Assembly: GCF_002775205.1 (NCBI RefSeq)
Contig: NC_036460.1
Span: 868,501-932,500, forward strand
Source: Xiphophorus maculatus
Lineage: Eukaryota > Chordata > Actinopteri > Cyprinodontiformes > Poeciliidae
DNA length: 64,000 nucleotides
Reading direction: 5' to 3'
The position numbers were made by a program, and so were the translations under genes. The stretch's first letter is position 1; each line of letters starts with the position of its first letter. Positions 48,224 through 54,200 of this stretch are shown here, in pieces. The notes beneath the pieces were generated by a model that worked only from the letters and a program-made list of their open reading frames with translations, was not told where the DNA came from and made no database searches.

Positions 48224-51200
48224 GCACTCAGAGTGTTTGGTCTCTTCCTGGTTGAACTGGTTCTGTGTTTCTGTTTCCAGTTCGGGTCAGCATGAAGGGA
48301 CCTCATGGCTTCATCTCAGGAACTGAGTGGCCTCTGATGGTGGTGAGACCCCAACACACACACACACACACACATGCACCCACACACACACACACACACA
48401 CACACCTACACACACACACACACACGCACACACACACACACACAACACACGTTTGCGTGGGTATCTTTGTAGGAGCCTTAGATTGACTTCCATTCATTTC
48501 TATAGCCTAACCCTAACCAAAACTCAATTCACACCTTAGTCCTGTTTTAGGGTCAAGGGTCAACCCCGACCCACAAACAGCGTTTCTCCTTGTGTGGACC
48601 ACAGACCACGGAGCTGATCCGCTGGACCCATCTTCAGGGTCTCTAGGTCTCCATAGCAACCATGAGAGACTACAGTTTGGCCTACACAAACATGAACATG
48701 TAGACATTGTTAAGCTCCGGTGGGCCTTTAACTAGACCAGATATGGACCCTGCAGACTGTGGAGCCATTTTCTTGGCTTTCCTTCAAATTAAAGGCAGAT
48801 TCTTTCTGACCTCGTGTCAGATGCTGCTTCAGTAAAAACTCAAATAAAAGTTTTGTAGACACGGTCATGGGCGCTAACTCCTCTTGCTAACTGATCCTGC
48901 TAACTGATTATTCTAACTCCTCCTGCTAACTCCACTGGCTAACTCCTCCTGCTAACTGATTATGCTAACTCCTCCTGCTAACTCCAGTGGCTAACTAGAT
49001 TGGCTAACTAATCCTGCTAACTCCACTGGCTAACTCCACCTGCTAACTGATTAGGCTAACTCGTCCTGCTAACTCCACTGGCTAACTAGACTGGCTAACT
49101 CCTTCGGCTATCTCCACTGGCTTACTCCTCCTTCCAACTCCACTGGCTAACTCCACCTGCTAACTGATTAGGCTAACTCGTCCTGCTAACTCCACTGGCT
49201 AACTAGACTGGCTAACTCCTTCGGCTATCTCCACTGGCTTACTCCTCCTTCCAACTCCACTGGCTAACTCCTCCTGCTAACGCCACTGGCTAACTCCTCC
49301 TACTAACTTCACTGGCTCACTTCTCCTGCTAACTCCCCGTGCTAACTCCACTGGCTAACTCCAATGTCCTGCTAACTTGTCCGTGTCTCTGCAGTTCTAC
49401 ATGGTGATGTGCATCGGGTATGTGCTGCTGGCTGTGATGTGGCTGGTTTTGTCCGCCTGCTACTGGAGAAGCCTGCTGCGGATCCAGTTCTGGATTGGTG
49501 GCGTCATCTTCCTGGGCATGCTGGAGAAAGCCGTGTACTATGCCGAGTTCCAGAGCATCAGCTATGAGGGCGTATCAGGTAGCCTGTTAGCCGGGTAGCC
49601 TGTTAGCCAGGTATCATGTCAGCCTGTTAGCCATTTATCATGTCAGGCTGTTAGCCATTTATCATGTCAGGCTGTTAGCCATTTATCATGTCAGGCTGTT
49701 AGCCATTTATCATGTCAGGCTGTTAGCCAGGTATCATGTCAGCCTGTTAGCCAGGTATCATGTCAGCCTGTTAGCCATTTATCATGTCAGCCTGTTAGCC
49801 ATTTATCATGTCAGGCTGTTAGCCATTTATCATGTCAGCCTGTTAGCCATTTATCATGTCAGGCTGTTAGCCATTTATCATGTCAGCCTGTTAGCCATTT
49901 ATCATGTCAGGCTGTTAGCCATTTATCATGTCAGCCTGTTAGCCATTTATCATGTCAGCCTGTTAGCCAGGTATCATGTCAGCCTGTTAGCCAGGTATCA
50001 TGTCAGCCTGTTAGCCAGGTATCATGTCAGCCTGTTAGCCAGGTATCATGTCAGCCTGTTAGCCATTTATCATGTCAGCCTGTTAGCCATTTATCATGTC
50101 AGCCTGTTAGCCATTTATCATGTCAGGCTGTTAGCCATTTATCATGTCAGCCTGTTAGCCAGGTATCATGTCAACCTGTTAGCCAGGTATCATGTCAGCC
50201 TGTTAGCCAGGTATCATGTCACCCTGTTAGCCAGGTATCATGTCAGCCTGTTAGCCAGGTATCATGTCACCCTGTTAGCCAGCGTCTCCTCCTCCTGGTT
50301 CGACCTCCTGAGCTGTCATGTGTCCTCCTGCAGTCCAGGGGGCGGTGGTGTTTGCCGAGGTGCTTTCGGCTGTGAAGCGGACGCTGGCCAGAGTTCTGGT
50401 GATCATCGCCAGTCTGGGATATGGAATCGTCAAGTGAGTCCAGCAACTGCTGCCATCAGAGAACAGTAATCCCAGTAGTATAACAGAACTGGGCCTGGAG
50501 AGAACGGGTCGCCCAGAACCACGAATCACTTCCTAGCCTGTTCAAGGTTCTGACAGCATTTGTATTTATTAACATGTCTCAAAGATTAAAATGATCGAGA
50601 ACACTGCTGACAGATCCATCGGGTTCCCTCCTGAACTTCCTCTCATCCTGCATTGAGGATCTTTGCAGCAAGATGCCTCACTCCGGCAACTCACAGACAT
50701 CTGTTTTAATGCGTTTTGTTACATAAGAAAAATAAACTCAAATAAACTTTTTTGCATCCAGAGTTGATGTTACAGATGCTTTAAGTTTCATGATTCCCAG
50801 ATTTGTAGGTTTTCTTTGTTTCTAAGCTATTATGACCTTTAACCCCTGTGACCTTCTACCCCCCCTGTTTCTGTCAGGCCAAGGCTGGGTGCCCTGCTGC
50901 ACAGAGTGGTCGGCGTCGGCTTGCTCTACCTGCTCTTCTCCATCATCGAGGGAATCCTGCGGGTCCACACGGTGAGTTCTGACCTGCTGGCCCGGTTCTG
51001 TTGGACCTGTTCCAGCCCAGTTGTGGATCAGTTCCGGCCCGGTCTAACCCGTGTGTTCTGCAGGATCGGGGAAATGACGACCGGAGCCTGATAGTGTGTG
51101 ACGTGGTTCTGGCTCTGACCGACTCCTGCGTTGTCTGGTGGATATCCTTACAGCATCAGAACCTTCAGTCATGATTGAATATCGTTTCGCTGTTTGATTC

Positions 51201-54200
51201 GTTATGTCTGCCTGGTTGAACTCCAGGTCCAGATTTCTAATCTGAAAACAGAGAAGAAGAAAAAGCCTCTGAGAACCAATCAGCTGCTGATTTAATTTCT
51301 TTCTATTTATTCTTTCTCATCCTCCTTTTTTCTTCCTTCTTTATTCTTGCATTCATCTCCTCCTCCTCCCTTTGTCTTCAGGCTGAAGATGATGTTCTTC
51401 TGGCTGCTATTCCTCTGGCTGTGCTCGATTCTGCCCTCTGCTGGTGGATATCCACTGCTGAACCTTTCCTTTTTAGCTGTAGAGAATCAGACTGTTGCTG
51501 CCTCTTATGTGTTAGCGATCCATGTTAGCGTCTTCCATGTTTGGGTCCCCCATGTTAATGTCCCTCATGTTAGCGTTCTCCATGTTAGCGTCCTCCATGT
51601 TAGAGTTCTCCATGTTAGCGTCTCCCATGTTAATGTTCCTCATGTTAACGCCATCCATGTTTGGGTCCCCCATATTAGCGTCCCTCATGTTAATGTCCCT
51701 CATGTTAGCGTCCTCCATGTTAATGTCCCTCATGTTAGCGTTCTCCATGTTAGAGTTCTCCATGTTAATGTCCTCCATGTTAGCGTCCTCCATGTTAATG
51801 TCCCCCATATTAACGTCCTCCATGTTAATGTCCTCCATGTTAGCGTCTTCCATGTTAATGTCCTCCATGTTAGCATCCTCTATGTTAGCGTCTCCCATGT
51901 TAGCGTCCTCCATGTTAATGTCCCCCATGTTAGCGTCCTCCATGTTAATGTCCCCCATGTTAGCGTCCTCCATGTTAATGTCCCCCATGTTAGCGTTTTC
52001 CATGTTAATGTCCTCCATGTTAATGTCCTCTATGTTAGCGTCCTCCATGTTAATGTCCCCCATGTTAGCGTTTTCCATGTTAATGTCCTCCATGTTAACG
52101 TCCTCCATGTTAATGTCCTCCATGTTAGCATCCTCTATATTAGCGTCTCCCATGTTAGCGTCCTCCATGTTAATGTCCCCCATGTTAGCGTCTTCCATGT
52201 TAATGTCCTCCATGTTAGCATCCTCTATGTTAGCATCTCCCATGTTAGCGTCTTCCATGTTAATGTCCCCCATATTAACGTCATCCATGTTAATGTCCCT
52301 CATGTTAGCGTTCTCCATGTTAGCGTCCTCCATGTTAGCGTCTCCCATGTTAATGTTCCTCATGTTAACGCCATCCATGTTTGGGTCCCCCATGTTAGCG
52401 TCCTCCATGTTAGAGTTCTCCATGTTAGCGTCCTCCATGTTAATGTCCCCCATATTAACGTCCTCCATGTTAATGTTCTCCATGTTAGCGTCTTCCATGT
52501 TAATGTCCCCCATGTTAGCGTCTTCCATGTTAATGTCCTCCATGTTAGCGACTCCCATGTTAGCGTCCTCCATGTTAATGTCCCCCATGTTAGCGTTCTC
52601 CATGTTAGCGCCTCCATGTTAGAGTTCTCCATGTTAGCGTCCTCTATGTTAGCGTCTCCCATGTTAGCGTCCTCCATGTTAATGTCCCCCATATTAACGT
52701 CCTCCATGTTAATGTCCTCCATATTAATGTCCTCCATGTTAGCATCCTGCATGTTAATGTCCCCCATATTAACGTCCTCCATGTTAATGTCCCCCATATT
52801 AATGTCCTCCATGTTAGCATCCTGCATGTTAATGTCCCCCATGTTAGCGTCTTCCATGTTAATGTCCTCCATGTTAGCGTCTTCCATGTTAATGTCCTCC
52901 ATGTTAGCGTCCTCTATGTTAGCGTCTCCCATGTTAGCGTCTCCCATGTTAACGTCCTCCATGTTAATGTCTCCCATATTAAGGTCCTCCATATTAGCGT
53001 CCCCCATGTTTGGGTCCCCCATATTAGCGTCCCCCATGTTTGGGTCCCCCATATTAGCGTCCTCCATGTTACCGTCCCCCATATTAGCGTCCTCCATGTT
53101 AGCGTCCTCCATTTTAACGTCCCCCATATTAGCGTCCTCTATGTTAGCGTCTTCCTTTATGGCGCTCTGTGTTATGTCTACTTGGAGCATTTGGTCCGGG
53201 TTAGCTGTAGCGTCTCGGTTTCTCGATGAAGCTTCCTTGACCTTTGGTCCCACATCTTCGTGAGCCTGGCTCAGACGATGAAGCTGCTGAAGCTGAGAAG
53301 GAACGTTGTGAAGCTCTCTCTCTTCAGACACTTCAGCAACACCCTCATCTTTGCTGTCATCGGTGCGTGAATGCCTCCTGTTCCTCCTCTTCCTCTTCTT
53401 GCCTTTCTAAATCTCTGTGTTGTTTTCAGCTTCGGTGATCTTCATCATCTGGACGGCGAAGAACTTCACCATGTCCAGGTGTCTCCCTGTAAGTAAGGAG
53501 ACGCCCTTATGTCTCTCTGTCGTCACGTCTCCAACGTTTTCATTCTTGCTGGTTTAGGACTGGAGGGAAGTCTGGATCCAAGACGCTTTCTGGCGCTTCC
53601 TGTTTTCCGTCATCCTATTGGTCATCATGTTCCTATGGCGACCGTCGGCAAATAATCAGATGTAAGAGGCGTTCTGGGGTTGGGTCATGTTTTATTCTGT
53701 GGTTTTAAGTGGACTGTGTTTGTGCGTGTCAGGTACGCCTTCAGCCCCCTGGTGGACGGGGACAGTGAGGATGAGGAGGAGAAGGAGCCCATGATGAACG
53801 AGGCTTTTGGTCAGAAACCTTCATCGTTTGTCTTCCTCAGCCTTTCCTCCCAGCCTCCAGTGAAGCTGCAGTTTGTTATGAAGTGAAGTTTTAGCTACCC
53901 CTTTAACTGCTTCCTGTTTGATTCAGGGGGTCACTGGTTTTAATATTTAATAAGAAATCAGTGCAAATCCAATAATAATCCTTATTAAATAGTTAATATG
54001 TTTATAAAAGCAGCAGATGGCTGAAGTCTTGAGGCTTAGTGTGTTGTTTCTTATATGTTGAAGCTTGTTGACCTTCTAATTGAGTCGTGGTTCTCTGCAG
54101 ACTCAAAGTGGGCGTGTCTAAAGCGTGAGCTCTGATTGGCTGGCTCCGGCAGCAGGAATCTGACAGGAATTGTTCATCAGTGGCGACCGCTTTAAAAAGA

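Follow-up and report, generated by a model that had tools for sequence, protein, structure and literature searches.

We report here on a 64,000-nucleotide stretch of the Xiphophorus maculatus genome (C18:868501-932500; below, the window), in which a tmem87a-like gene carries two neighboring exons, 13a and 13b. These are very probably mutually exclusive exons, a pair conserved in the TMEM87 family that owes its exclusivity to the incompatibility of U2-type and U12-type splice sites. The reading is carried by the splice sites and reading frame of the pair, by the full arrangement recurring in this genome's tmem87b copy, and by the annotation of both protein forms in fish and mammals.

The upstream exon 12 ends on a U2-type donor (gtgagt) and each alternative exon is preceded by a U2-type acceptor, while each alternative exon is followed by a U12-type donor, and a single U12-type acceptor with a nearby branch site serves both downstream introns (Table 1). 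Exons 13a and 13b are both phase 0/0, both end in Trp-Trp, and both have ATATCC directly 3' of them. Their peptides are homologous, with 8/22 aligned residues identical and a shuffle z of 5.3, values to be read as those of short hydrophobic peptides. We scored donors against ATATCCTTT and branch sites against TTCCTTRAY, which we take to be the U12 consensus sequences. The 13a exon combines the poorer pyrimidine tract with the better donor (64%, 8/9) and 13b the reverse (95%, 7/9), a balance that may be used in regulation. The initial annotation of this DNA was right in its coordinates, frame, Trp-Trp ends, AG acceptors, ATATCC donors, and shared branch site and AC acceptor; it also called both U12 donors, which are indeed present, but that of 13b is weaker than it implied.

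Placement, rather than occurrence, gives these motifs their weight. On the + strand of the 10-kb gene ATATCC is found only at 51142 and 51448, that is, at both exon ends, and TTCCTT[AG]A[CT] is found once on the + strand of the whole 64 kb, before exon 14, where 30 first-order Markov sequences gave an expectation of 1.5 per strand. In 64 kb, chance would be expected to supply either motif taken singly; the weight rests on the positions. The branch site TTCCTTGAC ends 12 nt upstream of exon 14, with 13 nt from the branch A at 53240 to the last intron base. Within 45 nt upstream of each exon the best U12 branch match was 9/9 for exon 14, 5/9 for 13a and 7/9 (38 nt away) for 13b; the last is background, because four control acceptors of the gene reach 6/9 to 7/9.

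Table 1. Features of the tmem87a-like gene and its alternative exon pair (window coordinates).
Feature	Position	Strand	Details
tmem87a-like (zgc:162698) gene	44833..54834	+	21 exons from manual reading of the sequence, of which an mRNA holds 20; final exon not located
Exon 12, upstream constitutive, phase-0 end	50878..50971	+	U2-type donor CACACG|gtgagt; aligns to the transmembrane helix 4 (TM4) region of human TMEM87A
Exon 13a, a-type, 78 nt, 26 codons	51064..51141	+	U2 AG acceptor (ttctgcag), weak pyrimidine tract, 64% Y
U12-type AT donor of 13a, ATATCCTTACAG	51142..51153	+	8/9 to ATATCCTTT; scored sequence ATATCCTTA
Exon 13b, b-type, 66 nt, 22 codons	51382..51447	+	U2 AG acceptor (tgtcttcag), strong pyrimidine tract, 95% Y
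U12-type AT donor of 13b, ATATCCACTGCT	51448..51459	+	7/9, departs at +7 and +8; scored sequence ATATCCACT
U12-type branch site TTCCTTGAC, common to both introns	53233..53241	+	9/9 to TTCCTTRAY; branch A at 53240
AC acceptor dinucleotide, common to both AT-AC introns	53252..53253	+	junction AC|ATC, then exon 14
Exon 14, 109 nt, second half of TM5 and start of TM6	53254..53362	+	aligns to human TMEM87A from residue 378

The mechanism we propose has two steps. The major (U2) spliceosome would join exon 12 to either 13a or 13b, and the minor (U12) spliceosome would join the chosen exon to exon 14 by removing an AT-AC intron. A 13a-13b junction would be barred, since it would require a U12 donor with a U2 acceptor, and a 12-14 junction would be barred too, since it would require a U2 donor with a U12 acceptor; with both barred by site class, each mRNA would hold exactly one of the two exons. 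An mRNA with both exons, or with neither, would stay in frame and free of internal stops, so nonsense-mediated decay would not clear such wrong products. The one-exon-per-mRNA logic of the initial annotation agrees with the sequence and with the model published for the family, as given in the available portions of two papers (PMC8329584, PMC6717393). It should even be a little stronger than was stated there, in that the U2 donor of exon 12 bars skipping of both exons as well. We infer from the DNA that the switch operates in this fish; for mouse, exclusivity in RNA and tissue preference have been shown in the accessible text of PMC6717393.

Homologous proteins show that both forms are widely annotated. 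Three protein searches gave 2147, 2232 and 2272 matches, and the best 120 of each (n = 360) were classed by their best local alignment score to six exemplar exons; this replaced an earlier classing by fixed text patterns that had failed to place 33 of the 360 (the exon 14 pattern was missing from 25 and the exon 12 pattern from 3, and 5 fell in neither class). Among the 360 listed homologues 169 are a-type, 190 are b-type, one (P0287) contains both exons and none contains neither. The best 120 of the window-type fish list divide into 85 a and 35 b, those of the human-TMEM87A query (mammals where named) into 77 a and 43 b, and those of the tmem87b-query fish list into 7 a, 112 b and the one with both. 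Each listed protein stands for a 90% cluster, so that a species may have a second isoform that the list hides. Both forms are nevertheless annotated within single species: in Oryzias latipes (P0022, a; P0069, b), in Poecilia mexicana (P0004 and P0006) and, for TMEM87A, in Mus musculus (P0232, a; P0145, b). The initial annotation had asked whether other fish keep both exons; at the level of annotated proteins they do. By text pattern, 17 of the 360 listed proteins continue from exon 13 into I-S... (e.g. P0018, P0039, P0125, P0149 and P0182); these are database models with mis-modelled minor introns, in which the AT-AC donor was missed. Mean identity is 0.42 among six a-type exons, 0.72 among four b-type exons and 0.33 between the types, and the mouse a-type exon scores a z of only 3.6 against that of the window, below several a-b pairs; a-type exons being short, diverged and low in z, their orthology is less secure than that of the b-type exons.

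Protein matches (25 in all) fall at three loci of the X. maculatus genome: the window, one on C19 and one on C22. In our tree the window copy groups with fish tmem87a-like/zgc:162698 proteins (99/98), the C22 copy with Danio and Astyanax proteins named 87B (100/100), and the C19 copy with mammalian TMEM87A (96/93), although this last join is unsure because the tree tool flagged long branches. The tree has 13 rows, none of them human TMEM87B, and the rows for the window, C19 and C22 are 39-40% filled. Names require some care, as those in the tmem87b-query list are mixed: many are 87A by NCBI, and some of these are 87B by UniRef. The initial annotation had named the window gene tmem87b, a label that annotated names and tree lead us to reject; the window gene is the tmem87a-like fish paralogue, and the tmem87b-clade copy is the one on C22.

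The C22 copy repeats the AT-AC layout of the window. Downstream of a U2 donor it has an a-type exon of 72 nt with donor ATATCCTTC (8/9) and a b-type exon of 72 nt with donor ATATCCTTT (9/9), followed by one AC acceptor preceded by TCCCTTGAC; its two exons share 9/24 aligned residues (z 6.3, again for short hydrophobic peptides). In the C19 copy (L027 4259-4470) there is one alternative exon, a-type and 72 nt long. Its donor scores 9/9, and the AT-AC intron that follows measures just 139 nt and has CTCCTTAAT ahead of its acceptor. There was no second ATATCC on the + strand of the 7.5 kb examined (L027), and a pattern scan of C19 intron 12 gave no b-like exon; the C19 paralogue therefore appears to have lost its b exon.

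Several observations weigh against the proposed switch. Positions +7 and +8 of the 13b donor do not fit the consensus, and isoform b could therefore be weak in this fish. In the C22 copy the branch site TCCCTTGAC is a poorer match, and the acceptor of the a-type exon is nearly without a pyrimidine tract. Terminal dinucleotides alone do not define the spliceosome, and U12 introns ending in AG exist. The protein evidence comes from cluster representatives that are, by name, largely automatic predictions. Finally, P0287 (Stegastes partitus), which came from the tmem87b-query list and to which NCBI gives the name 87A isoform X1, carries the two exons together; it reads past the 13a donor as ISFQCTSVAP, and this double-exon model looks like gene-prediction read-through.

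A first alternative, which we consider unlikely, is that one exon only is in use in this fish and the other is decaying, 13b being the probable candidate. Beyond its 7/9 donor, 13b of the window lacks a valine codon that is present in its close relatives, which read AEDDVVLLAA, and the apparent state of the C19 paralogue shows that exon loss does happen. Yet 13b is open and retains the residues that are invariant in a 36-member b-type alignment; annotated proteins of close relatives (X. hellerii P0002, Poecilia mexicana P0006) include the b exon; and the U2 acceptor of 13b has the stronger pyrimidine tract of the two. Exon 13a, too, is intact.

Slightly less probable again is that exclusivity has another source, be it a regulatory repressor, steric interference or competition between RNA structures, and that the U12 sites are incidental. 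RNA-structure mechanisms exist in other genes (PMC6071210, judged by listing), and isoform use in mouse varies by tissue, so that some regulation must be layered over the site logic. We reject steric interference as the principal cause, as a spliceosome has room in the 240 nt that separate the 13a donor from the 13b acceptor; and recurrence of the U2/U12 layout in the C22 paralogue argues against the sites being incidental. The remaining alternative, that the AT-AC sites are chance motifs and the exons are spliced at nearby GT-AG sites, is highly improbable: chance would indeed supply ATATCC and the branch motif in 64 kb, and GT dinucleotides do lie near both exon ends (a few of them in frame by position), but the motifs sit precisely where each alternative exon ends and just ahead of exon 14, two paralogues again pair ATATCC donors with AC acceptors, no GT from -40 to +60 nt around either exon end matches GTRAG or GTRNGT, the I-S... 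continuations in 17 of the 360 listed homologues are what a missed ATATC donor would produce, and mouse reverse transcription PCR (RT-PCR) opposes it at the family level.

Incompatible U2 and U12 sites thus remain our preferred explanation, and we turn to what the exon choice would do to the protein. The alternative exon encodes the first half of transmembrane helix 5 (TM5). Exon 14 starts at residue 378 of human TMEM87A, so that the b-type exon ends at W377 and contains D371, C375 and W376. In the structure of human TMEM87A, according to the available text, TM5 D371 coordinates the phosphate of a phosphatidylethanolamine ligand, and the acyl chain that exits via the TM5/TM6 gap is in contact with C375 and W376 (PMC11239671); the same slot, between helices 5 and 6, is described in the accessible part of a 2022 structure paper (PMC9711517). 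In an alignment anchored at exon 14 and read backwards, a-type exons retain the D, which is invariant in both types (two 36-member alignments), whereas position 375 is mostly V/I, with A/F in a few fish, and the listed mammalian a-types have L at 376. Matches in the PDB at E 0.001 comprise four sequences, all human TMEM87A, and all four score about 22 bits better against the b-type than against the a-type protein (alignment viewed: 8HSI), so the solved structures may represent just one of the two forms that occur naturally. The available text of the 2024 structure paper names three human isoforms, with no mention there of the exon pair (PMC11239671). AlphaFold models of P0001 (a-type) and P0002 (b-type) have mean predicted local distance difference test scores of 59.8 and 56.2; with scores this low they serve solely to show that in each form a single predicted helix spans the boundary of exons 13 and 14 (366-399 and 362-393).

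From these positions, the swap may tune the lipid-facing half of TM5, and the a-type form may behave differently from the b-type. The sharing of the layout by paralogues in turn suggests a switch older than the TMEM87A/TMEM87B split, a claim that rests on the C22 DNA, mammalian TMEM87A proteins and the mouse Tmem87b paper, human TMEM87B not being among the listed proteins. Taken together these points would describe a switch that predates the split and lets the spliceosome change the lipid-facing half of TM5, keeping D371 and changing C375 and, in mammals, W376. We advance this wider picture tentatively, as possible rather than probable; if it is true, the lipid slot of the a-type form differs from that of the solved b-type form, possibly with other cargo or channel behavior.

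As to the gene as a whole, the predicted a-form protein is 98% identical to an annotated protein of Xiphophorus couchianus (P0001), in which the segment corresponding to 13a is identical to that of the window. The domains of the TMEM87/GOST family, a seven-transmembrane domain and a GOLD domain, are present (GOST_TM PF06814, E 3.6e-78; TMEM87A-B_GOLD PF21901, E 1.2e-28). Downstream of the 13b donor and upstream of the branch site, the shared U12-type intron is taken up by a minisatellite (51519-53155) with a 30-bp unit in about 55 copies and long open stretches on both strands, and two further minisatellites fill other introns of the gene, at 49597-50281 and 48873-49362 (24-bp and 26/52/117-bp units). 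Elsewhere in the window, a 2863-amino-acid open frame at 10658-19249 (+) with Helitron_like_N, PIF1 helicase, OTU protease and endonuclease domains is a Helitron transposon with a long open frame, and an open frame with RNase H at 4284-5006 (+) is likely of retroelement origin.

Among known systems, the MAPK8/MAPK9 (JNK) switch is found in an unrelated gene, and it changes part of a kinase domain where that of TMEM87 changes a membrane helix. Its exons 6a/6b (7a/7b) are alike in forming a tandem pair in which two U2 3' and two U12 5' splice sites are interlocked, as laid out in the available part of a 2021 review (PMC8329584). The same part of the review places an interlocked U2/U12 model for TMEM87a and TMEM87b beside MAPK8/9; like the present case, it nests a U2 acceptor within a U12 intron and has the exons of both genes included in a mutually exclusive way, whereas fish paralogues, the loss of an exon from one copy and the effect on the protein are not covered in this part (PMC8329584). 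The Mapk9 switch has been reported to be Nova2-regulated, whereas Tmem87b was not a Nova2 cross-linking and immunoprecipitation (CLIP) target, by the portion of the mouse study available (PMC6717393).

That study is the closest precedent. From its available text, exons 11 and 11a of mouse Tmem87b are mutually exclusive at a minor intron, with no 11-11a reads, as established by RNA sequencing and RT-PCR (Olthof 2019, PMC6717393); the RT-PCR used AvaI digestion and 11a was dominant in cortex, and Tmem87a is among the mouse genes that skip the upstream exon (PMC6717393). The statement in the initial annotation that no such description was known has thus been overtaken by mouse Tmem87b 11/11a and by the 2021 review (PMC6717393, PMC8329584). 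For fish, none of the open-licence papers brought up by our searches, most of them judged by listing, describes the exon pair. The mouse and window pairs share the family, exclusive neighboring exons at a minor intron, a U12 5' splice site after the alternative exon and lengths divisible by three; unlike the window exons of 78 and 66 nt, which belong to a fish paralogue of the TMEM87A branch and are known here from DNA, both mouse exons are 72 bp, as in the C22 copy (PMC6717393, available text). The window pair is a conserved relative of the published mouse switch and not a new mechanism; what the present analysis adds is the layout in two fish paralogues, the apparent loss of one exon in a third, and the pointer to the lipid-contacting half of TM5.

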